Under the pieces are notes generated by a model. It was given only the letters and a program-made list of their open reading frames with translations, made no database searches and was not told where the DNA came from. A stretch of 64,000 nucleotides of DNA, from assembly GCF_034479515.1 (NCBI RefSeq), contig NZ_CP140152.1, positions 1,054,001 to 1,118,000 on the forward strand. Direction: 5' to 3'. Each line of letters begins with the position of its first letter. Position 1 is the stretch's first letter. Source of the DNA: Duganella zoogloeoides. Lineage in GTDB: Bacteria > Pseudomonadota > Gammaproteobacteria > Burkholderiales > Burkholderiaceae_D. The position numbers were made by a program, and so were the translations under genes. Shown here piece after piece: positions 37,507-62,502 of the stretch.

Positions 37507-40044
37507 ATGATCAAACTCGCCCTGAGCATGACCGCGCGCGACTGGCGCGCCGGCCAATTGCGCTTCCTGCTGATCGCCCTGACGGTGGCCGTCGCGGCCC
37601 TGTCCGCTACCGGCTTCTTTATCGATCGCCTGCGTAGCGGCCTGGACCGTGATGCCCACCAGTTGCTGGGCGCCGACGTGGTGGTCAGCACCGACTTGCC
37701 GGTACGCCCCGAGTGGCGGGCCGAAGCGCTCCGGCGCGGGCTGGTGGTGACCGACACCGTGGTTTTCCCCAGCATGGCCACGGCAGGCGAGGGCGAGCAG
37801 TCGCAATCGATGCTGGCCTCGCTCAAGGCGGTCGGCCCCGGCTACCCGCTGCGCGGCCGGCTCAAGCTCACCACCGATGCCGCCCAGGCCGAGCAAAGCG
37901 AAGGCGCGGGCGCCGACGGCATCCCCGCGCCGGGCACGGTCTGGCTCGATGCCGGCCTCCTGGGCAGCCTGGGCACCAGCGTGGGCGGCCAGGTCAAGCT
38001 CGGCGACAAGACATTCACGGTCGCGCAACTGATCGCGTCCGAACCCGATCGCGGCGCCAACTTCCTGGCGTTCGCGCCGCGCGTGATGCTGGCGCTGGCC
38101 GACCTCGAAGCGACCAACCTGATCCAGCCCGGCTCGCGCGTGACGTACCGCCTGCTGGTAGCGGCGCCGCCATCGTCGAAAAATACCGCAGCCGAAGCGG
38201 CTGCGTTCCAGCAATGGATGCAGGACACCATCAAACAGGCCAATCTCAAGGGCGTGCGGGTCGAGTCGCTGGAAAATGGCCGCCCCGAAATGCGCAACAC
38301 GCTTGACCGCGCGGACCGTTTCCTGTCGCTGGTCGGCTTGCTGTCGGCCATGCTGGCGGCGGTGGCCGTGGCCATGGCCGCGCGCCGCTTCATGCAGCGC
38401 CACCTCGATGCCTGCGCCATGCTGCGCTGCCTGGGCCTGACGCAAAACCAGGTCACCGCGATGTATCTGTACGAATTCCTGCTGGTCGGCCTGGCCGGTA
38501 GCGCCATGGGTGTGGCGGTCGGCTTCGGCGCCCACTACGTGCTGCTGGAAGTGCTGGGCAAGCTGGTGGCCGCCAACTTGCCTGGTCCCACCATCTGGCC
38601 GGCTCTGCAAGGCCTGGCCACCGGCATCCTGCTGCTGGCCGCGTTTGCGCTGCCGCCGATTTTGCAACTGCGCAAGGTGCCGCACAACCGCGTGATCCGC
38701 CGCGAGCAGGACGCACCGCAGGTGGCGGCGTTGGCCACCTACGGCCTCGGTTTCGCCGGGTTTGCATCGCTGCTGTTGTGGCAGGCGGGCGACGCCATGC
38801 TGGCGCTGTACACGGCGCTCGGTTTTGTGGCCGCCTTCGGCGTGTTCGCGCTGGTGGCGTGGCTGGGCCTGAAAGCGCTCAAGCCGCTGCGCGGCGCCAT
38901 CGACCATCAAAGCTGGCGCTTCGCCATCACCTCGCTGCAACGCCGCCCGGGCGCGACCATCGTGCAGGTGGTGTCGCTGGCGCTGGGCATGATGGCGCTG
39001 CTGGTGCTCACCGTGGTGCGCGAAGACCTGATGACGGCCTGGCGCAATGCTACGCCGCCCGATGCGCCCAACCGCTTCATCATCAACATCCAGCCCGAGC
39101 AAAAAGACCAGATCGCCGCGCGCCTGAAGTCTGCTGGCGTGGCCTATGCGCCGCAGTATCCGATGATCCGTGGCCGGCTGGCCGCCGTCAACGGCCAGCC
39201 GGTCACGGCCGAGACGTACACCGAGGACCGCGCGCGCGGCCTGGCCGACCGCGAATTCAACCTCTCCACCATGGCCACCATGCAGGCCGAGAACGAGATC
39301 GTGGCCGGCAAGTGGTTTACCGACGCTCCCGGCGTCGCCGAAGCGTCGGTGGAGGAGGGCATTGCCAAGACCCTGCGCTGGAAGGTGGGCGACAAGCTCA
39401 ACTTCAATATCGCCGGTTCGCCGGTCGAGGTGACGATTACCAGCTTGCGCAAGCTCGAATGGGGCTCGATGCGGGTCAATTTCTTCGTCATCATCAACCC
39501 GGCGGCGCTCACCGAAGTGTCGCAAAGCTGGATCACGGCGTTCCACCTGCCGGGCCAGCAGGGACCGGTGATGAACGCCCTCACGCGCGACTTCCCGAAC
39601 CTGACGATCGTCGATGTCGGCGGCTTGCTGCGCCAGGTGCAGGCCGTGCTCGACCAGGTGGTCACCGCGATCGAATTCCTGTTCATCTTCACGCTGGCCT
39701 CCGGCTTGCTGGTGCTGTACGCCGCGCTGATGGGTTCGCAGGACGAGCGTACCCGCGAATCGGGCCTGCTGCGCGCGCTGGGCGCCACCCGGCGCCAGTT
39801 GTCGCAGGCGCAACTGATCGAATTCACGCTGGTGGGGGCGCTGGCCGGGGTGCTGGCCGCCACCGGCGCCGCCGTGATGGGCTGGGCGCTGGCCACGTAC
39901 CAGTTCAAGTTTGCCTGGGCCTTCTCGCCGTCGGTGTGGATGGTGGGCTTGCTCGCTGGCGCCGTGTGCGCGATTGCCGGCGGCTGGCTCGGTTTGCGCA
40001 GCGTGCTGCGCCAGCCGCCGCTGCAAACCTTGCGCGAAGGCTGA
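37507..40044 (+). CDS. large FtsX-like ABC transporter permease (YbbP type)
   Basis: 845 residues. A first membrane helix near 17-35, a large periplasmic region, then FtsX-type helix groups near 280-460, and a second FtsX domain near 715-840 (FLFIFTLASGLLVLYAALMGSQDERTRESGLLRALGATRRQ). The duplicated FtsX layout is that of YbbP/LolE-like permeases. The usual ATPase and esterase partners are not adjacent. It starts 6 nt after the deaminase gene. Confidence 0.85.
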   Translation: MIKLALSMTARDWRAGQLRFLLIALTVAVAALSATGFFIDRLRSGLDRDAHQLLGADVVVSTDLPVRPEWRAEALRRGLVVTDTVVFPSMATAGEGEQSQSMLASLKAVGPGYPLRGRLKLTTDAAQAEQSEGAGADGIPAPGTVWLDAGLLGSLGTSVGGQVKLGDKTFTVAQLIASEPDRGANFLAFAPRVMLALADLEATNLIQPGSRVTYRLLVAAPPSSKNTAAEAAAFQQWMQDTIKQANLKGVRVESLENGRPEMRNTLDRADRFLSLVGLLSAMLAAVAVAMAARRFMQRHLDACAMLRCLGLTQNQVTAMYLYEFLLVGLAGSAMGVAVGFGAHYVLLEVLGKLVAANLPGPTIWPALQGLATGILLLAAFALPPILQLRKVPHNRVIRREQDAPQVAALATYGLGFAGFASLLLWQAGDAMLALYTALGFVAAFGVFALVAWLGLKALKPLRGAIDHQSWRFAITSLQRRPGATIVQVVSLALGMMALLVLTVVREDLMTAWRNATPPDAPNRFIINIQPEQKDQIAARLKSAGVAYAPQYPMIRGRLAAVNGQPVTAETYTEDRARGLADREFNLSTMATMQAENEIVAGKWFTDAPGVAEASVEEGIAKTLRWKVGDKLNFNIAGSPVEVTITSLRKLEWGSMRVNFFVIINPAALTEVSQSWITAFHLPGQQGPVMNALTRDFPNLTIVDVGGLLRQVQAVLDQVVTAIEFLFIFTLASGLLVLYAALMGSQDERTRESGLLRALGATRRQLSQAQLIEFTLVGALAGVLAATGAAVMGWALATYQFKFAWAFSPSVWMVGLLAGAVCAIAGGWLGLRSVLRQPPLQTLREG

Positions 40045-40184: not shown

Positions 40185-41291
40185 ATGTTTGATTCCATCT
40201 GCGCGACCTACACCGGATCTGACGGCGAGCTCAATCGTGACCTGTTCAGCAGTTCTGTCGATTGCATTAAAATTCTCGACCTGCAAGGAAGATTGGGTCA
40301 GCTTAATCCGGGCGGCGTGGTGGCGCTTGAGTTGAGTGCACCGGAACAGATACTTGGCAAGACCTGGTGGGAATTCTGGCCAGAAGACGGCCGCATGCTG
40401 GCACAAAACGCTTTCGAAAGCGCCAAAAACGGCAAGGTCAGCAAGTTCAACGCCTTCTGTCCCACCGCCCAGGGTACGCCGCGCTGGTGGGACGTGGTGG
40501 CCAACCCGGTGTTCGGCGCCGACGGCCAGGTGCGCGAAGTGATGGTGGTGTCGCGCGACATGACCGAGCTGTTCATGGCGCGCCAGGCGCTGCACGACGC
40601 TGACCTGCGCAAGGACGCCTTCCTGGCCACCGTGGCGCACGAGTTGCGCAACCCCATCTCGGCTGCGCACAACGCCACCGAATTGCTGAAACTCAAGGCC
40701 TTCGACCACGTCCGCACCGCCGAACTGGCGCAAATGGTGCAGCGCCAACTGGGCCACATGAGCCGGGTGGCCGAGGACTTGCTCGATACGACGCGCATCC
40801 GCCGTGGCGAAATCCGCCTGAGCCTGGTCCGGCTCGACATGCGCGCCGTGGTGTACGACACCGTGGAGCAGTTGCAGTCGGCGGTGCAGGCCAAGCAGCA
40901 TCGCCTGACGGTCGATATCGATGCCGCTGCTTGCCTGGTAATGGGCGACCACACGCGGCTGGTACAGGCGGTGGGCAATGTACTGGGCAACGCGGTGCGC
41001 TACACGCCCGAGGGTGGCGTCATCACGCTGGCGCTGCGCCGCGCCGGCGACATCATCACCGTGCGCATCACCGACAATGGCATGGGCATCCCGGCCGAGC
41101 GCCTGGCGACCATCTTCGACATCTACAGCCAGGTCCACAAGTCCACCGAGCGCAAGAGCGACGGCCTGGGACTGGGCCTGTCGCTGGTACGGGCGCTGGT
41201 GGAACTGCATGGCGGTACCGTGGCTGCCGCCAGCGCTGGCGTGGCGTCAGGGAGTTGTTTCACGATCACGCTGCCGGCCGCGCCGCGTTGA
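40185..41291 (+). CDS. soluble PAS-domain sensor histidine kinase
   Basis: 368 residues, no membrane helix. A PAS domain covers about 20-130 (KILDLQGRLGQLNPGG; GTPRWWDVVANPVFG). The H box is TVAHELRNPIS with His152; the N box is LGNAVRYTPEG; the G boxes are DNGMGIP and GLGLGLSLVRALVELHGG. It has no receiver domain of its own. Its last 45 bp overlap the 3' end of the convergent response-regulator gene of the Jqs-type system, so a functional link is possible but not shown. Confidence 0.9.
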   Translation: MFDSICATYTGSDGELNRDLFSSSVDCIKILDLQGRLGQLNPGGVVALELSAPEQILGKTWWEFWPEDGRMLAQNAFESAKNGKVSKFNAFCPTAQGTPRWWDVVANPVFGADGQVREVMVVSRDMTELFMARQALHDADLRKDAFLATVAHELRNPISAAHNATELLKLKAFDHVRTAELAQMVQRQLGHMSRVAEDLLDTTRIRRGEIRLSLVRLDMRAVVYDTVEQLQSAVQAKQHRLTVDIDAAACLVMGDHTRLVQAVGNVLGNAVRYTPEGGVITLALRRAGDIITVRITDNGMGIPAERLATIFDIYSQVHKSTERKSDGLGLGLSLVRALVELHGGTVAAASAGVASGSCFTITLPAAPR

Positions 41292-42323
41292 TGTGACGCT
41301 GGCCGCCGCGTTGGCCAGTTCGCGCTCCTGGCGCAGGAACTCGGTATAGGCCAGCGGCGGCTGCGCGTAATAATGCGGCGGCAGGTCGAACAGCGCCCAG
41401 TAATAGGTTTCGCGGCCCCGGCATACTTGGGGCGTGGCGCAATAGCGGTGCCAGTTGTCGCCCATGTGGCGCGCATACATGCCGTCGCCATCCACATCCG
41501 AAAAGAACGGCAGCACGCGCCGCGCACCCAGGGCGTCGAGCAGCGATTGCGGCGCGTCGCTGTCGCACGCCATCTCGTATTGCGCCGCCATGCCTTGCTC
41601 GGTTTCGATCATCATCAGCCGGGTGCGGCCAAATTTATCCAGGAACACGATGCCGGTGGGATTGGCGAACAGGTAGTGCTCGATGAAGCCCAGGTCCTGC
41701 TTGAGCCGCTGCACCTGCAAGGCCAGCACCGGGTCGTCGAGGAAGTGGTAATTGTGCAGCAGCACCAGCTCGCGCAAGGTTTCCGACTGGTCGGCGAAAT
41801 AGCGCCGTTGCAGCGTGGTGATTTCCAGTTCCAGGATGTCGAGCGCATGGTCGTCGCTTTTCTGGATGTAGCGGTCGATCAGGCCGCGGTTGAAGGCGCT
41901 CACCGCGATTTTCTCGTCGGCGGCACCGGTAAATAAAATCTTCTTGCACGGCAGGTCGCTCACCAGCTCGCAAAATTCCAGCCCATTCATTTGCGGCATC
42001 GAGTAATCGACCACCAGCACCGACGGCGTGGCAAAGCGCTGCGGCTGGCCGGCGATGCGGTAAATTGCATCGACGTCGAGCGCCACGTTGAACTGGTCGC
42101 CCGGCTGGTTCTGGGTATCGAAATTCATGTGCAGCGGCGTGAGCGGCGGCGTGCCGCGCCGGCCTTGCTCGCCGTGGCGCAACCAGTGCAGCGCCGTGGT
42201 GGTGTCGTGAAAAGTCTTGCTGGCGTGGATGGGGTCGAGCTGGAACGACAGGCTGCGCAGGAAGGAGTCGCTGTCATCGACCAGCACGGTCAGGGTGGGG
42301 TGGGTGTAGAGAGGGAGTGACAT
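41247..42323 (-). CDS. jqsR: response regulator of the alpha-hydroxyketone signalling system (JqsR/LqsR type)
   Basis: 358 residues from the ATG at 42323. The receiver domain has the acidic pair Asp16-Asp17 (LVDDSDSFLRS), phospho-acceptor Asp106 (VVDYSMPQMNGLEF), Thr in LFTGAADEK and the Lys of RYIQKSDD. About 45 extra residues lie between the first strands and Asp106. The C-terminal 170 residues have no recognised DNA-binding motif, as in Legionella LqsR. It begins 2 nt after jqsS ends. Symbol by analogy with the Janthinobacterium jqs locus. Confidence 0.75.
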   Translation of the reverse strand: MSLPLYTHPTLTVLVDDSDSFLRSLSFQLDPIHASKTFHDTTTALHWLRHGEQGRRGTPPLTPLHMNFDTQNQPGDQFNVALDVDAIYRIAGQPQRFATPSVLVVDYSMPQMNGLEFCELVSDLPCKKILFTGAADEKIAVSAFNRGLIDRYIQKSDDHALDILELEITTLQRRYFADQSETLRELVLLHNYHFLDDPVLALQVQRLKQDLGFIEHYLFANPTGIVFLDKFGRTRLMMIETEQGMAAQYEMACDSDAPQSLLDALGARRVLPFFSDVDGDGMYARHMGDNWHRYCATPQVCRGRETYYWALFDLPPHYYAQPPLAYTEFLRQERELANAAASVTSTRRGRQRDRETTP

Positions 42324-42325
42324 GA

Positions 42326-43606
42326 TTATTTTGCCAGTGAGGCCTGCTGGGGGAATTCGAGGATGAAAATGGCGTAGGCGCTTTCGCGCGACACGCATTC
42401 GATGGTGGCGCTCCAGGCATCCATGATTTCCTGGCACAGCGCCAGGCCGATGCCGGCGCCGTTGTGCGGCGGGAATGAATAAAAGCGGTGGAAGATCAGC
42501 GGCATCTGCTGCGCCGGAATGCCGCAGCCGGTGTCGATGAACAGCAGGCGCGGCGGCGCATGGCCGCCATCGACCACGATCCGCACCCGGCCCTTGCCGG
42601 CGCGCTGGATGGCTTTCAGCGCATTCCTCAGCAGGTTCAGCAGGATCACCACCGACAGCTCGGACTGGCCGGCGAAACTGAAATTGCGGCGCACCTCCAG
42701 CGCCACCAGCTTTTGCTGGCCGGCGTTGACGAACGGGTAGCGCTTGAGCACCGCCGCCACCACTGCTTCCATCGATACCGTCTCGATCGGCCGCAGGCTG
42801 CGCCGTACCGCCGTGGCGCTGAGCAGGAACAGGTCGATCATGTGGTTCATATGGCGCACCTCGAACTGGATCCGCGCCAGCGCGTCGACGGTGCCCACGC
42901 GGTCGGCCGGCAGCGGCCCCGCACCTTCCGAGCACATGCGCAGCAGGCCGCGCACATTGGCGTCCACGCTGGTGAGCGGCGTGCGCAGTTCGTGCGCCAC
43001 GGTGGCCAGTCCGGCGCCCAGTCCGGCCAGTTTTTCCTGCGCCAGTACCTCGCGGCTGATCTTGGCAGCAGCGAGCACGGCAATCGTGAACCAGTGGATC
43101 GGCAATTGCTGCAATACCAACCGGCTGCCGAGGACGTCGGTGTCTCCCACCATGGCCACCGCTGTCACCGCCACCGCCGTGCCGATCAGGTAAGCCTTGA
43201 CGGCCACGCTGGTGTCGAAATGGAACAGCACGATCAGGCCGATCAGCAGCGACTCGCTCCACACGCCGGACGCATGATTCATCAGGAACATAAAGGTGAA
43301 GAAGAACGGAAAGATGTAGCTGAGCGTGACCAGCAGGTACAGGTCCATCATGCGGCGGCTGAACTGGCGCGCAAACAGGCCGATCGCGCACAGCACGATG
43401 CCAACCAGCCGCAGCGGCAGGCTCTCGTATTCCTGCGGGAAAAAATGCTGCCAGATCACGTAGTACAGCGGCATGGCGACCGTGCCGATGCAGGCCAGCA
43501 GCAATATGCGCACGGTGGCATGGTCTTCGCGGCCATGGTATTGGAGCAGCGACTGCAGCACGCTCGTCTTCCAACGCTTGAAGGATTCTTGCAGTGGTTG
43601 CTTCAT
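42326..43606 (-). CDS. jqsS: membrane sensor histidine kinase for alpha-hydroxyketone signal (CqsS/LqsS/JqsS type)
   Basis: 426 residues. Six hydrophobic segments occupy about 33-180, with little periplasmic sequence, as in CqsS and LqsS. The H box is ATVAHELRTPLTS with His205; the N box LLRNALKAI; the G boxes DTGCGIP and HNGAGIGLALCQEIM. There is no C-terminal receiver (unlike Vibrio CqsS, like LqsS). It is divergent from the autoinducer synthase gene and pairs with the response regulator just downstream. Confidence 0.82.
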   Translation of the reverse strand: MKQPLQESFKRWKTSVLQSLLQYHGREDHATVRILLLACIGTVAMPLYYVIWQHFFPQEYESLPLRLVGIVLCAIGLFARQFSRRMMDLYLLVTLSYIFPFFFTFMFLMNHASGVWSESLLIGLIVLFHFDTSVAVKAYLIGTAVAVTAVAMVGDTDVLGSRLVLQQLPIHWFTIAVLAAAKISREVLAQEKLAGLGAGLATVAHELRTPLTSVDANVRGLLRMCSEGAGPLPADRVGTVDALARIQFEVRHMNHMIDLFLLSATAVRRSLRPIETVSMEAVVAAVLKRYPFVNAGQQKLVALEVRRNFSFAGQSELSVVILLNLLRNALKAIQRAGKGRVRIVVDGGHAPPRLLFIDTGCGIPAQQMPLIFHRFYSFPPHNGAGIGLALCQEIMDAWSATIECVSRESAYAIFILEFPQQASLAK

Positions 43607-43679
43607 GGCAAGGATTTACTTGTCTGTGAGACTTATCATCGCCCGGATTTGCAACGCACTCTGGCATATCAAATAGGTC

Positions 43680-43695
43680 GTTGATTTTGATCAAC
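43680..43695. promoter_or_regulatory. perfect FNR/CRP-family box between jqsS and cqsA
   Basis: TTGATTTTGATCAA (43681-43694) matches the FNR consensus TTGAT-N4-ATCAA exactly, and the palindrome extends one base each side. It lies 79 nt before the synthase ATG and about 75 nt before the kinase ATG, so it could serve either gene. A binding site for an oxygen- or NO-responsive regulator is an inference from the consensus. Confidence 0.65.
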
Positions 43696-43772
43696 TGGTT
43701 TGGGATTTTTATGCATCAAGGTGCGAAATAGTTTCATAAAAAAACACAACCATTTCAAAATAGGAAAATATC

Positions 43773-45032
43773 ATGACCAACGTTAATATTTGCCAAAATA
43801 CCTTGTTTCACACTTCGCTGCTTGCTGCCGAACACCTGATGCCGGATTACGTGCGCCGGCGCATGGATGCGCACCACGTGACGCGGATTGAACAGTTGCT
43901 CGGCGGCGAGCACCCGCATGCCTGGCAACCGCTTCAGGCGGGCTCGGTATTTTTGGCCGGTAACGATTACCTGTGCCTGGCCGGCGAGCCGGCGCTGGTG
44001 CGGGCCCAGGTCAACGCCTTGCAAGGTAGTGAAGGCGAGCAGCTGATGTCGGCGGTGTACCTGCAAGAGGGCAGTGAGCAGCACCGGCTCGAACAGAAGT
44101 TCGCGCGCTTCATGGGCGCCGAGGATGCCATCCTGGCGCAGTCGGGCTGGGCTGCCAACGTCGGGCTAGTACAAACGCTGGCTGAGCCCGGCCTGCCGGT
44201 GTACCTCGACATGCAGGCCCACGCCTCGCTGTGGGAGGGCGTGCAGTCGGCGGGCGCCGTGCCGATCTCGTTCCGCCACAACGACCTCGAGCATTTGCAG
44301 CGGCAGGTGGCGCGCCACGGACACGGTGTGATCGCGGTCGATGCGCTCTACAGCACCAACGGCAGCGTGGCGCCGTTGCCGGCACTGGTCGATCTGGCCT
44401 GGGCGACCGGCTGCGTGCTGATCGTCGATGAGTCGCATTCGCTGGGCACCCACGGCCCGCGCGGCGCCGGGCTGGTGGCCGCGCTGGGCTTGCAGGACCG
44501 CGTGCATTTCCGCACGGCGTCGCTGGCCAAGGCGTTTGCCGGACGCGCCGGCGTTATCACGTGCTCCAGCAAATTCAAGGGCTACTTCCTGTCCGAGTCG
44601 CGACCGGCCATCTTCAGTTCCTGCCTGCTGCGGCACGAGCTGGCGTGGTTCGATGCCGCCATCGACTTTGTCGCGGCAGCCGACGAGCGGCGCGTGGCCT
44701 TGCACATCAAGGCCTGCGCGCTGCGCGAGGAACTCGGTGCGCTCGGCTACAACGTCAGCGACGGCACCGAGCAGATCATCGCCCTGGAAGCGGGTCCGGA
44801 GCCGAAAACGCTGGCGCTGCGCAAGCTGCTCGAGGCGCGCGGCGTGGTGGGCGCCATGTTCTGTGCACCGGCCACGCCGAAGAACCGCTCGCTGGTGCGC
44901 CTGACCCTTAACAGCGGCCTTGATCGCAGCCAGCTGCGGCGCATCGTCGAAGCCTGCGACGATATCCGCAGCCTGGCCGATGTCGAGGGCTGGACGTCCA
45001 CGCGGCGCCTGCACAAGCTGGCGCTGGTGTGA
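43773..45032 (+). CDS. cqsA: alpha-hydroxyketone quorum-sensing autoinducer synthase (CqsA/LqsA/JqsA)
   Basis: 419 residues, a PLP-dependent alpha-oxoamine synthase relative. The cofactor Lys253 is in RTASLAKAFAGRAG, with Asp219 and His222 in VDESHSLGTHG and the glycine-rich GSEGEQLMSAVYLQEGS at 85-101. The SLAKAFAGRAG and DESHSLGTHGPRGAG blocks set it apart from BioF, Kbl and HemA. CqsA and LqsA make CAI-1 and LAI-1 type hydroxyketones; the Janthinobacterium relative is JqsA. AGGAAA precedes the ATG. The acyl chain of the product cannot be predicted. Confidence 0.92.
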   Translation: MTNVNICQNTLFHTSLLAAEHLMPDYVRRRMDAHHVTRIEQLLGGEHPHAWQPLQAGSVFLAGNDYLCLAGEPALVRAQVNALQGSEGEQLMSAVYLQEGSEQHRLEQKFARFMGAEDAILAQSGWAANVGLVQTLAEPGLPVYLDMQAHASLWEGVQSAGAVPISFRHNDLEHLQRQVARHGHGVIAVDALYSTNGSVAPLPALVDLAWATGCVLIVDESHSLGTHGPRGAGLVAALGLQDRVHFRTASLAKAFAGRAGVITCSSKFKGYFLSESRPAIFSSCLLRHELAWFDAAIDFVAAADERRVALHIKACALREELGALGYNVSDGTEQIIALEAGPEPKTLALRKLLEARGVVGAMFCAPATPKNRSLVRLTLNSGLDRSQLRRIVEACDDIRSLADVEGWTSTRRLHKLALV

Positions 45033-45063
45033 AGGCGCACGAGGGGAAGCGCGGTACGCTATC

Positions 45064-45465
45064 ATGGCGGCTATGACCGAAGAATCGAAAACCCTCTATG
45101 AAGTGATCGGCGGCGAGGCGCGCGTGCGCGCGATGGTTGACCGTTTTTATGACCTGATGGAACTCGAGCCCGAGTTCCAGCTGCTGCGCTCCGTGCACGG
45201 TCCGTCGCTTGAAAACGCCAACGCCCGCCTGTTCATGTTCCTGAGCGGCTGGATGGGCGGCCCCGACCTGTACCAGCAAGCGCATGGCCATCCGCGCCTG
45301 CGCATGCGCCACATGCCGTTCGCCATCGGCACCCAGGAGCGCGACCAGTGGCTGCGCTGCATGGCGTGGGCGATGGAAGACGTGGGCATCGATACCGAAC
45401 TGCGCGTGCGGCTGATGAACTCCTTCTTCCAGACCGCCGACTGGATGCGCAACAAGCCCGATTAA
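45064..45465 (+). CDS. group II truncated hemoglobin
   Basis: 133 residues from ATG 45064; ATG 45073 gives a better family N terminus (MTEESKTLYEVIGGE) and may be the true start. The 2/2 globin fold shows VDRFYDLME, the distal region LFMFLSGWMGGPDLYQQAHGHPRLRMRHMPF with the proximal His, and the Trp of WLRCMAWAM at the G8 position that defines group II. It binds O2 or NO in the cytoplasm. It follows cqsA by 31 nt and may share its transcript. Confidence 0.9.
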   Translation: MAAMTEESKTLYEVIGGEARVRAMVDRFYDLMELEPEFQLLRSVHGPSLENANARLFMFLSGWMGGPDLYQQAHGHPRLRMRHMPFAIGTQERDQWLRCMAWAMEDVGIDTELRVRLMNSFFQTADWMRNKPD

Positions 45466-45471
45466 GATTCC

Positions 45472-46803
45472 ATGACCGATACCCACTTCTATGTGTTGCT
45501 GGCGCTGGTGCTCGCAGCGATCGTGCTGCTGGTCCTCGTGCTCTTGCGCCCGCGCGGCAGTGCCGGTCTCGATGGCGCAACGCTGGCATCCCTGTCCAAC
45601 CTGGCCGAACGTATCGAACGCGTGGAGCGCGAGGTGCGGGTGCAACTGCAAACCACGGCGCAGTCGAGTCACGCGGCCACGGTGCAGCAGTTCGACGGCA
45701 TGCGGCGCCAGCTCGAAACGCAAGGACTGGTCGCGCGCGACGAGCAGACCCGCAACCTCAAGCTGTTCGCCGACAGCATGAACCAGACCCTCGCCCGCCT
45801 GACCGAATCGAACGCCGCCCGCATGGGCGAGGTGCGCGCCACGCTGGAAGCGAAGATCAAGGACCTGCAAGCCGATAATGGCGCGCGCCTGGAAGAGATG
45901 CGCAAGACCGTGGACGAGAAGCTGCACGCCACGCTCGAATCGCGCCTGTCGGCGTCGTTCCAGCAGGTGTCCGAACGCCTCGAGCGCGTGCACCAGGGCC
46001 TGGGCGAAATGCAGCAGCTGGCGCTGGGCGTGGGCGACCTCAAACGCGTGCTCACCAACGTCAAGACGCGCGGCACCTGGGGCGAGGTGCAGCTGGAAAT
46101 GCTGCTCGAACAGGTGCTCACCCCGGAGCAGTACGCCAAGAACGTCGAGACCATTGCCGGCAGCGGCGCGCGGGTGGAGTTTGCGCTCAAGCTGCCGGGC
46201 CAGGTGGAGGGCGGATCTCCGGTGTGGATGCCGATCGACGCCAAGTTCCCCAAGGAGCAGTACGAGCGCCTGCTGGAAGCGGCCGACCGCGCCGACGCCG
46301 ATGGCGTGGCGCAGGCCGGGCGCGAACTGGAACGGGCGGTGCGCGGCGAGGCCAGGACCATTTCTGAAAAATACGTGTCGCCGCCGCACACGACCGACTT
46401 TGCGATCCTGTTCCTGCCCACCGAAGGGCTGTACGCGGAAGTGATGCGGCGCCCGGGCCTGGCTGACGAGCTGCAGCGGCTGCACCGCATCAGCATTGCC
46501 GGGCCATCGACCTTGAGTGCGCTGCTCAACAGCCTGCAAATGGGCTTCCGCACGCTGGCGCTGGAAAAGCGCTCGTCGGAAGTGTGGCAGGTGCTGGGCG
46601 CGGTGAAGACGGAATTCGCCAAGTTCGGCGACGTGCTGGCCGCCACCAAGCTGACGCTGGAGCGCGCCGCCAAGAATATCGAATCGGCCGAAACCCGCAG
46701 CCGCCAGATGGCGCGCAAGCTCAAGTCGGTGGAGGCGCTGCCGAGCGAGGCGGCGCAGCTGTTACTGGGGCCGGAGATCGACCAGGCCGACGGCGACAGT
46801 TGA
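45472..46803 (+). CDS. rmuC: DNA recombination protein RmuC
   Basis: 443 residues. One N-terminal membrane helix (7-24), a coiled-coil region (about 45-175), then the RmuC domain with RGTWGEVQLEMLLEQVLTPEQYAKN, PVWMPIDAKFPKEQYERLLEA and FAILFLPTEGLYAEVMRRPGL. RmuC limits recombination at inverted repeats; the fold suggests a nuclease. It starts 6 nt after the hemoglobin gene. Confidence 0.93.
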   Translation: MTDTHFYVLLALVLAAIVLLVLVLLRPRGSAGLDGATLASLSNLAERIERVEREVRVQLQTTAQSSHAATVQQFDGMRRQLETQGLVARDEQTRNLKLFADSMNQTLARLTESNAARMGEVRATLEAKIKDLQADNGARLEEMRKTVDEKLHATLESRLSASFQQVSERLERVHQGLGEMQQLALGVGDLKRVLTNVKTRGTWGEVQLEMLLEQVLTPEQYAKNVETIAGSGARVEFALKLPGQVEGGSPVWMPIDAKFPKEQYERLLEAADRADADGVAQAGRELERAVRGEARTISEKYVSPPHTTDFAILFLPTEGLYAEVMRRPGLADELQRLHRISIAGPSTLSALLNSLQMGFRTLALEKRSSEVWQVLGAVKTEFAKFGDVLAATKLTLERAAKNIESAETRSRQMARKLKSVEALPSEAAQLLLGPEIDQADGDS

Positions 46804-58145: not shown

Positions 58146-58159
58146 TTGATGTATATCAA
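58146..58159. promoter_or_regulatory. perfect FNR-type box upstream of rsuA
   Basis: TTGATGTATATCAA fits TTGAT-N4-ATCAA exactly. It lies 50 nt before the rsuA ATG and 85 nt from the divergent small gene. Regulation by an FNR/Anr-type factor is inferred from the consensus only. Confidence 0.5.
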
Positions 58160-62484: not shown

Positions 62485-62502
62485 GTTTGATCTGTATCAA
62501 AC
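62485..62502. promoter_or_regulatory. perfect FNR-type box upstream of the rpn gene
   Basis: GTTTGAT-CTGT-ATCAAAC is an 18-nt palindrome containing a perfect TTGAT-N4-ATCAA (62487-62500). It is centred about 40 nt before the ATG of the downstream gene and 29 nt after flhA. Confidence 0.55.

Follow-up and report, generated by a model that had tools for sequence, protein, structure and literature searches.

The window analyzed here, a stretch of 64,000 nucleotides from the genome of Duganella zoogloeoides (the host genome, a single contig of 6.32 Mb), contains between positions 40185 and 45465 five adjacent genes whose core is an alpha-hydroxyketone quorum-sensing (QS) system of the JQS/Lqs type: the synthase gene jqsA, the gene jqsS of a six-helix sensor kinase with its histidine, and the gene jqsR of an LqsR-type regulator are all present. 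This core is the published Janthinobacterium/Duganella system and not a new one. Taken as a whole, we consider it quite likely that the locus is an ordinary, complete jqs system with an Fnr-type box between jqsS and jqsA, that the PAS histidine kinase and the globin encoded at its two ends are bystanders, and that the synthase was lost in a related clade. According to this model, JqsA would make an alpha-hydroxyketone, and the membrane kinase JqsS would sense this predicted signal by way of its six helices; JqsS and JqsR would exchange phosphate on His205 and Asp106, with chemistry and order that we infer from the Lqs system. An Fnr-type regulator of the Crp/Fnr family, bound at a palindrome in the intergenic region, would set the transcription of the locus, above all that of jqsSR, by low oxygen or nitric oxide (NO).

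The identity of the core genes follows from domain models and solved structures. JqsA (43773..45032, plus strand, 419 aa) scores 533.5 bits against the NCBIfam model of alpha-hydroxyketone autoinducer synthases (NF005526; cut-off 428), whereas the bioF model gives 225.9 bits, under its cut-off of 426, and the Kbl and serine palmitoyltransferase models also remain below theirs. Its best solved relatives in the PDB are the CAI-1 autoinducer synthase entries 3hqt and 2wk8; in the alignment to CqsA (3hqt) the SLAK motifs of both proteins coincide, and Lys253 in this motif is presumably the lysine that binds pyridoxal phosphate. A BioF or Kbl identity, which the first-pass annotation had named as the alternative to its CqsA/LqsA-type synthase, is ruled out by the NCBIfam scores. 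The whole host genome contains one such synthase, and its other three matches reach only 25-28% identity.

JqsS (42326..43606, minus strand, 426 aa) possesses the HisKA and HATPase_c domains of Pfam and six hydrophobic segments between residues 34 and 179; a seventh segment (317-333) is adjacent to the ATPase domain and regarded as soluble. No receiver domain is found in JqsS by Pfam, and the host genome has a single JqsS-like match at E <= 1e-60. JqsR (41247..42323, minus strand, 358 aa) matches PDB entry 6sy9 ("Response regulator"), which we take to be LqsR, over residues 2-276 (2e-40); its Pfam and NCBIfam matches are limited to the receiver region (residues 96-191), and neither database finds a DNA-binding domain in it. 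A predicted structure of JqsR (mean pLDDT 78.7) was not used as evidence. The two minus-strand genes are separated by 2 bp, with jqsS first, and jqsS and jqsA diverge from a spacing of 166 bp. The synthase score, the hydrophobic segments and the 6sy9 match bear out what the first-pass annotation had read here, i.e. a synthase divergent from a six-helix kinase and an LqsR-type regulator, joined as synthase, receptor and regulator in one block; all five genes of the stretch lie where it had placed them and belong to the families that it had named.

The site was compared across 116 rows, whose states are written with R for the regulator, H for the kinase, S for the synthase and P for the PAS kinase: 66 rows are RHS, three PRHS, 20 RH (receptor-only), nine R, and 18 are empty. 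Of the underlying loci, 79 named ones were found by synthase similarity and therefore all bear a synthase; further loci were chosen by hand from genome tallies (20 of 165 globin-bearing genomes, then 20, 20 and 11 stretches), and two of the first 20 globin genomes chosen (G117 and G186) have jqs genes elsewhere. Because the loci are partly hand-chosen, counts over the 116 rows are not frequencies, while those of the whole-genome tallies are. The duplicate rows L114, L118 and L119 were dropped before the tree was built; L068 and L150, probably from the same genome, are both in it. The named relative closest to the window at this site, Duganella phyllosphaerae T54, reaches 97% when the flank proteins are joined.

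In the tally of the genus (n = 74), 45 genomes have the synthase and 65 have JqsS (both at E <= 1e-60), and 73 have the globin. The synthase never occurs without JqsS (0/74), and JqsS occurs without the synthase in 20 of the 74. When fetched and aligned, all of these 20 receptor-only genomes carry the order permease-jqsR-jqsS-globin-rmuC at the ancestral site. Nine genus genomes have no JqsS: seven contain only jqsR at the site, one is empty there, and G248, with no globin match, was left out; two more jqsR-only loci (L097 and L099) belong to another genus of the family. In the phylogeny of the flank proteins, inferred with FastTree (28 of 113 inner branches below 80), 31 rows whose site has no synthase (20 with jqsS and jqsR, seven with jqsR only, four empty) form one clade with support 99. 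Beside it stand a synthase-bearing Duganella/Rugamonas clade and a Janthinobacterium clade, with a fork that the tree does not settle, and the full Massilia loci are placed outside all of these. Over the whole tree the states change four times for the synthase and five times each for JqsS and JqsR.

The simplest history for this topology is likely a single ancestral loss of the synthase in the related clade, followed by further decay: jqsS, and later jqsR, would have disappeared in some of the lines. The tree alone does not tell a gain of the synthase from a loss. The graded series at one site, from full through synthase-free and regulator-only to empty, amounts to a natural experiment on what becomes of a QS receptor after its synthase has gone. 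Three of the four empty loci of the synthase-free clade are from genomes (G226, G214 and G240; rows L147, L148 and L149) that have a more distant jqsA-S-R set elsewhere (synthase 63-65%, kinase 51-52% identity), which would fit a loss of the system from the ancestral site and its later return. A frame search of the aligned stretches also revealed single in-frame stops in the synthase of G200 and in jqsS of G236, G215, G220, G218, G206, G227 and G250, all otherwise full genomes.

What the receptor-only kinases respond to can be approached by their conservation. His205, the N-box Asn, the Asp and second Gly of the G1 box and the three glycines of the G2 box are kept in 20 of 20 receptor-only JqsS; in place of Gly360 of the G1 box, 13 of them have Ala, as do 12 of the 66 full loci. 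The receiver Asp106 and Lys of JqsR are kept in 98 of 98 rows, the Asp thus in all 20 receptor-only ones. In the sensor, W52, F103 and K182 are kept in 69/69 synthase-bearing rows and in 0/20 receptor-only rows; fixed changes in the kinase part are L207 to M and F248 to Y. For columns defined as conserved on the full loci of Duganella and Janthinobacterium, mean retention in the sensor (37 columns) is 74% in the receptor-only proteins versus 83% in the full Massilia loci, and in the kinase (107 columns) 93% versus 91%. The ratio of sensor to kinase nonsynonymous divergence (dN) has a median of 2.81 in nine independent receptor-only pairs (above 1 in 9/9) and of 1.32 in 33 synthase-bearing pairs (above 1 in 24; Mann-Whitney p = 4e-5). 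Independent pairs are the better test than non-independent ones for the ratio of nonsynonymous to synonymous divergence (dN/dS), which is below 1 in the receptor-only sensor (0.26 in the independent pairs); rows L093 and L143, with altered N-termini, were omitted, and of 34 synthase-bearing pairs one could not be used. These two rows (genomes G106 and G204) have a receptor-only jqsS with a shortened or altered N-terminal sensor, apparently a further step of decay.

The receptor-only clade itself is well supported as a matter of sequence: its phosphorelay has been kept, and its sensor has changed or is under less constraint. One could imagine that these species eavesdrop on hydroxyketones made by their neighbors. 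The open reading frame of jqsS, the complete retention of the phosphorelay residues and the sensor dN/dS below 1 favor such listening, but the loss of all three sensor residues in every receptor-only row, the higher dN ratio, and a kinase that has lost much of its sensor (L093) do not fit it well. A changed or less constrained sensor next to a kept phosphorelay makes it less likely that the original signal is still perceived as before, and we find eavesdropping doubtful. Among the open-access matches listed, no case of hydroxyketone receptors kept without a synthase concerns jqsS-jqsR.

The second part of the model concerns the palindrome TTGATTTTGATCAA (43681..43694, no strand), an exact TTGAT-N4-ATCAA between jqsS and jqsA. 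The excerpts of PMC5080296 name TTGAN6/7TCAA the JAI-1 motif, report it at genes affected by a jqsA mutation, and describe a 49-bp deletion holding the motif that cut vioA promoter activity by 75-90%; PMC8552646 calls the same motif the jqsR motif, and TTGAN6TCAA is a putative Fnr site in PMC4065386. The main text of PMC5080296 contains no term that starts with Fnr, Crp or anaerob. Among the open-access matches listed for JAI-1 or jqsA with FNR, and for FNR with violacein or Oxalobacteraceae, there is no paper on such a link, and neither the Fnr-type reading of the box nor the receptor-only clade appears in any.

At the site, TTGAN6/7TCAA is present in 65 of 66 RHS, 3/3 PRHS, 20/20 RH and 9/9 R rows and in none of the 18 empty ones; dinucleotide shuffles predict 0.4-3.3%. 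The box is a median of 74 bp away from the jqsS start in 64 full loci (quartiles 73-74, range 17-117), and the left gene of the receptor-only loci starts at a median of 73 bp. Of the 20 receptor-only loci, 19 were measured, and in these the globin start follows the box at 25-33 bp. The search pattern dictates the half-sites but leaves positions 5 and 10 free: these are T and A, like in an Fnr box, in 19/19 measured receptor-only boxes, and among 111 full-locus boxes position 5 is T in 77 and position 10 is A in 84.

The box also occurs elsewhere. TTGAYN4RTCAA is present 28 times in the host genome, and the reversed pattern nine times. Genes downstream of host boxes include ccoN (TIGR00780, 770.8 bits), one gene of the Crp/Fnr family, one for OmpW, and those of a Rieske protein and a PAS chemoreceptor. 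Of 30 family genomes, 29 carry the same pattern before ccoN, which we take to be a standard Fnr target (14 have the strict form TTGATN4ATCAA), as do 17 of a further 20, while the reversed control is found in 0/30 and 0/20; the scan covered 330 bp upstream of ccoN for the initial 30 loci and stretches about 700-850 bp long for the later 20. In the 195 family genomes there are 3099 strict boxes versus 129 reversed controls. The box is not restricted to jqs genomes: 143 genomes without synthase and JqsS contain 1601 strict boxes versus 107 controls, and boxes outnumber controls in 138 of them. On the side of possible binding proteins, the host genome has ten HTH_Crp_2 matches over the cut-off, and at least three of its Crp/Fnr proteins possess an E-x2-SR recognition helix, which we assume to read TTGAT; two of these three also have N-terminal Cys clusters, so that the genome presumably encodes Fnr-type regulators. 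The one scanned among them (L192) scores 112.5 bits against each of the FixK and Fnr models, below their cut-offs.

The ccoN placement, the enrichment without synthase and JqsS, and the site form in PMC4065386 together argue that the JAI-1/jqsR motif is an Fnr-type box. As a sequence element the box is well supported as Fnr-type; its action on jqs would be that of a regulatory site, as its conservation and its spacing from jqsS suggest, and given its identity, a coupling of jqs transcription to oxygen or NO is probable. Several observations weigh against this reading. Some host boxes precede genes without an evident oxygen link (dnaG, mscL, adenylate kinase), and of the 28, six are located within a called gene or are not closely followed by one; in three of four receptor-only genomes tested, there is no box before ccoN. 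The genome-wide tallies did not cover jqsR, and a copy may be present in some of the 143 genomes, as it is in G070 and G108. The published motif also allows a 7-base spacer, unfit for an Fnr box, and the literature excerpts tie it to jqsA-mutant genes and name it for JAI-1 or jqsR (PMC5080296, PMC8552646). Finally, 14 of 21 jqs loci that lie elsewhere or are cut by contig ends have no box, so that the box is not needed for a jqs system.

The last points touch on a second alternative, in which the palindrome is an operator of JqsR, or otherwise specific to JAI-1, JqsR acts on DNA, and the likeness to an Fnr box is convergent. The box indeed goes with jqsR at the site (97 of 98 loci with jqsR, none of 18 without), and the motif at jqsA-mutant genes, the effect of the vioA promoter deletion and the published name (available text of PMC5080296 and PMC8552646) could all be understood in this way. 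We nevertheless consider it improbable, and JqsR unlikely as the box-binding protein, because Pfam and NCBIfam find no DNA-binding domain in JqsR, which matches the response regulator 6sy9 over residues 2-276, and because boxes are enriched where synthase and JqsS are missing and 29 of 30 genomes have one ahead of ccoN; the boxless off-site or cut jqs loci are a further point against it.

If the motif is an Fnr box, the published JAI-1 regulon needs reinterpretation, and genes described as quorum-regulated may be under the control of oxygen or NO, or of both inputs. A wider proposal, to which we would give slightly less than an even chance, is that the JAI-1 regulon of the Oxalobacteraceae was built on an oxygen/NO regulon: the motif would be the Fnr box, jqs would be gated by an Fnr-type regulator, the JAI-1 effect would act through or with that regulator, and the receptor-only pair, with the box directly before the globin, would have been turned to another input.

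Some further occurrences of the box are worth recording. In 12 family genomes of group g6, 798 strict boxes face three controls, a median density of 9.2 per Mb, where the remaining groups of the comparison have 2.5-2.7 per Mb. The window has two more exact boxes, one (58146-58159) 3 bp before an open reading frame (ORF) with an RNA pseudouridylate synthase domain, whose start may be further downstream, and one (62487-62500) 34 bp before a 330-aa ORF without a Pfam match. At 1886864-1886921 of the host genome (G000), two boxes lie between the Crp/Fnr-family gene (L192) and a divergent PAS-GGDEF-EAL gene, an arrangement that suggests autoregulation coupled to c-di-GMP turnover.

The remaining two genes of the stretch look like neighbors rather than partners of jqs. 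From left to right, the order is FtsX permease, PAS kinase, jqsR and jqsS on the minus strand, jqsA, globin and rmuC. The permease (37507..40044, plus strand; MacB_PCD and FtsX domains by Pfam), an FtsX-like ABC transporter permease, flanks the site on the left with and without jqs, and rmuC (45472..46803, plus strand; PF02646) flanks it on the right. The PAS kinase (40185..41291, plus strand; PAS_4, HisKA and HATPase_c by Pfam) is soluble, with no hydrophobic segment, and convergent with the regulator, as had been noted: the 3' ends of both genes share 45 bp (41247-41291). The kinase gene is intact and under purifying selection (dN/dS 0.22-0.28). It is found at this site in only 3 of the 116 loci, namely the window, L001 and L002, which form one clade with support 100 in the flank-protein tree of the 116 rows; among the 79 named loci fetched by synthase similarity, it adjoins jqsR only in L001 and L002. 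The next relatives are in seven further family genomes, at 38-50% identity and on contigs other than that of the globin. The kinase would have entered the site, between permease and jqsR, in a single small clade of Duganella.

The globin (45073..45465, plus strand, 130 aa, alternative start 45064) is a 2-on-2 (truncated) hemoglobin by PF01152 (3.7e-41), with HbO-type 2-on-2 hemoglobins as solved relatives; the group II assignment of the first-pass annotation is consistent with these relatives. In most of the compared loci the gap to jqsA is short (at most 152 bp in 50 of 68 on-site loci), and there both genes may share a transcript. In evolution, the globin is not tied to jqsA. Among 195 family genomes, 165 have the globin, 46 the synthase and 52 JqsS, and 120 of the 165 globin genomes are without a synthase. 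A comparison of positions in the two family tallies places the globin less than 1 kb from the synthase in 22 of the 46 synthase genomes and at 2.3-2.5 kb in 11; in the remaining 13 it is elsewhere, unlisted or absent. In Janthinobacterium sp. LM6, ORFs that we read as resembling a MarR regulator and an MFS transporter separate both genes. Permease, globin and rmuC occur together in 18 of 22 fetched globin loci without jqs genes; of the other four, L109, L128 and L129 have no permease there and L131 no rmuC. The globin would accordingly be an old neighbor, associated with rmuC and the FtsX permease. That it is an independent Fnr target is not supported at the site, since none of the 18 empty sites carries the box.

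The gene-neighborhood comparison, which had been set beforehand as a test, reveals that neither gene follows the synthase, and with the PAS kinase in 3 of 116 loci and the globin kept without synthase or jqs, the two are neighbors and not a conserved unit with jqsA. The proposal that all five genes form one pathway, with the PAS kinase as a second input to JqsR comparable to LqsT and the globin as output or as oxygen/NO sensor, can call on the intact, selected kinase gene overlapping jqsR, the short jqsA-globin gaps and the box just before the receptor-only globins, yet is very improbable in view of the rarity of the kinase, its soluble build with a PAS domain in place of the membrane sensor, whereas LqsT is an LqsS homologue in the excerpts of PMC5289986, and a globin that occurs in 120 family genomes without a synthase and is split from it in LM6.

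Among known systems, the closest is JQS of Janthinobacterium and Duganella (sp. HH01 and HH102), for which the available text of PMC3566124 and PMC5080296 describes jqsA, jqsS and jqsR in the same organization, i.e. three genes with the synthase adjoining the kinase and the regulator beyond, and PMC5080296 a TTGAN6TCAA box upstream of jqsA. The word "globin" has no occurrence in the available main text of either paper. What differs at our locus is the PAS kinase beside jqsR in this clade, and the box is identified here as Fnr-type. The Lqs system of Legionella pneumophila likewise combines a synthase, a sensor kinase and an LqsR-type regulator, and LqsS, like JqsS, presumably has no receiver domain. 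Unlike its order lqsA-lqsR-hdeD-lqsS with an unlinked lqsT (PMC5289986, in part), there is no hdeD between the jqs genes here, and the host genome has one JqsS-like match (E <= 1e-60). The CqsA/CqsS system of Vibrio shares a homologous synthase (3hqt, 2wk8), but the V. cholerae cluster is without an LqsR homologue according to the excerpts of PMC3566124. The Fnr/Anr regulon has the same TTGAT-N4-ATCAA palindrome as its box, which in the host genome also precedes ccoN and a Crp/Fnr-family gene. The history of the receptor-only clade has its nearest counterpart in PhcX of Ralstonia, an LqsR-family regulator retained after the loss of lqsA (available text of PMC10653808); unlike in Ralstonia, the kinase gene jqsS has been retained here too, in 20 genomes and at the ancestral site.

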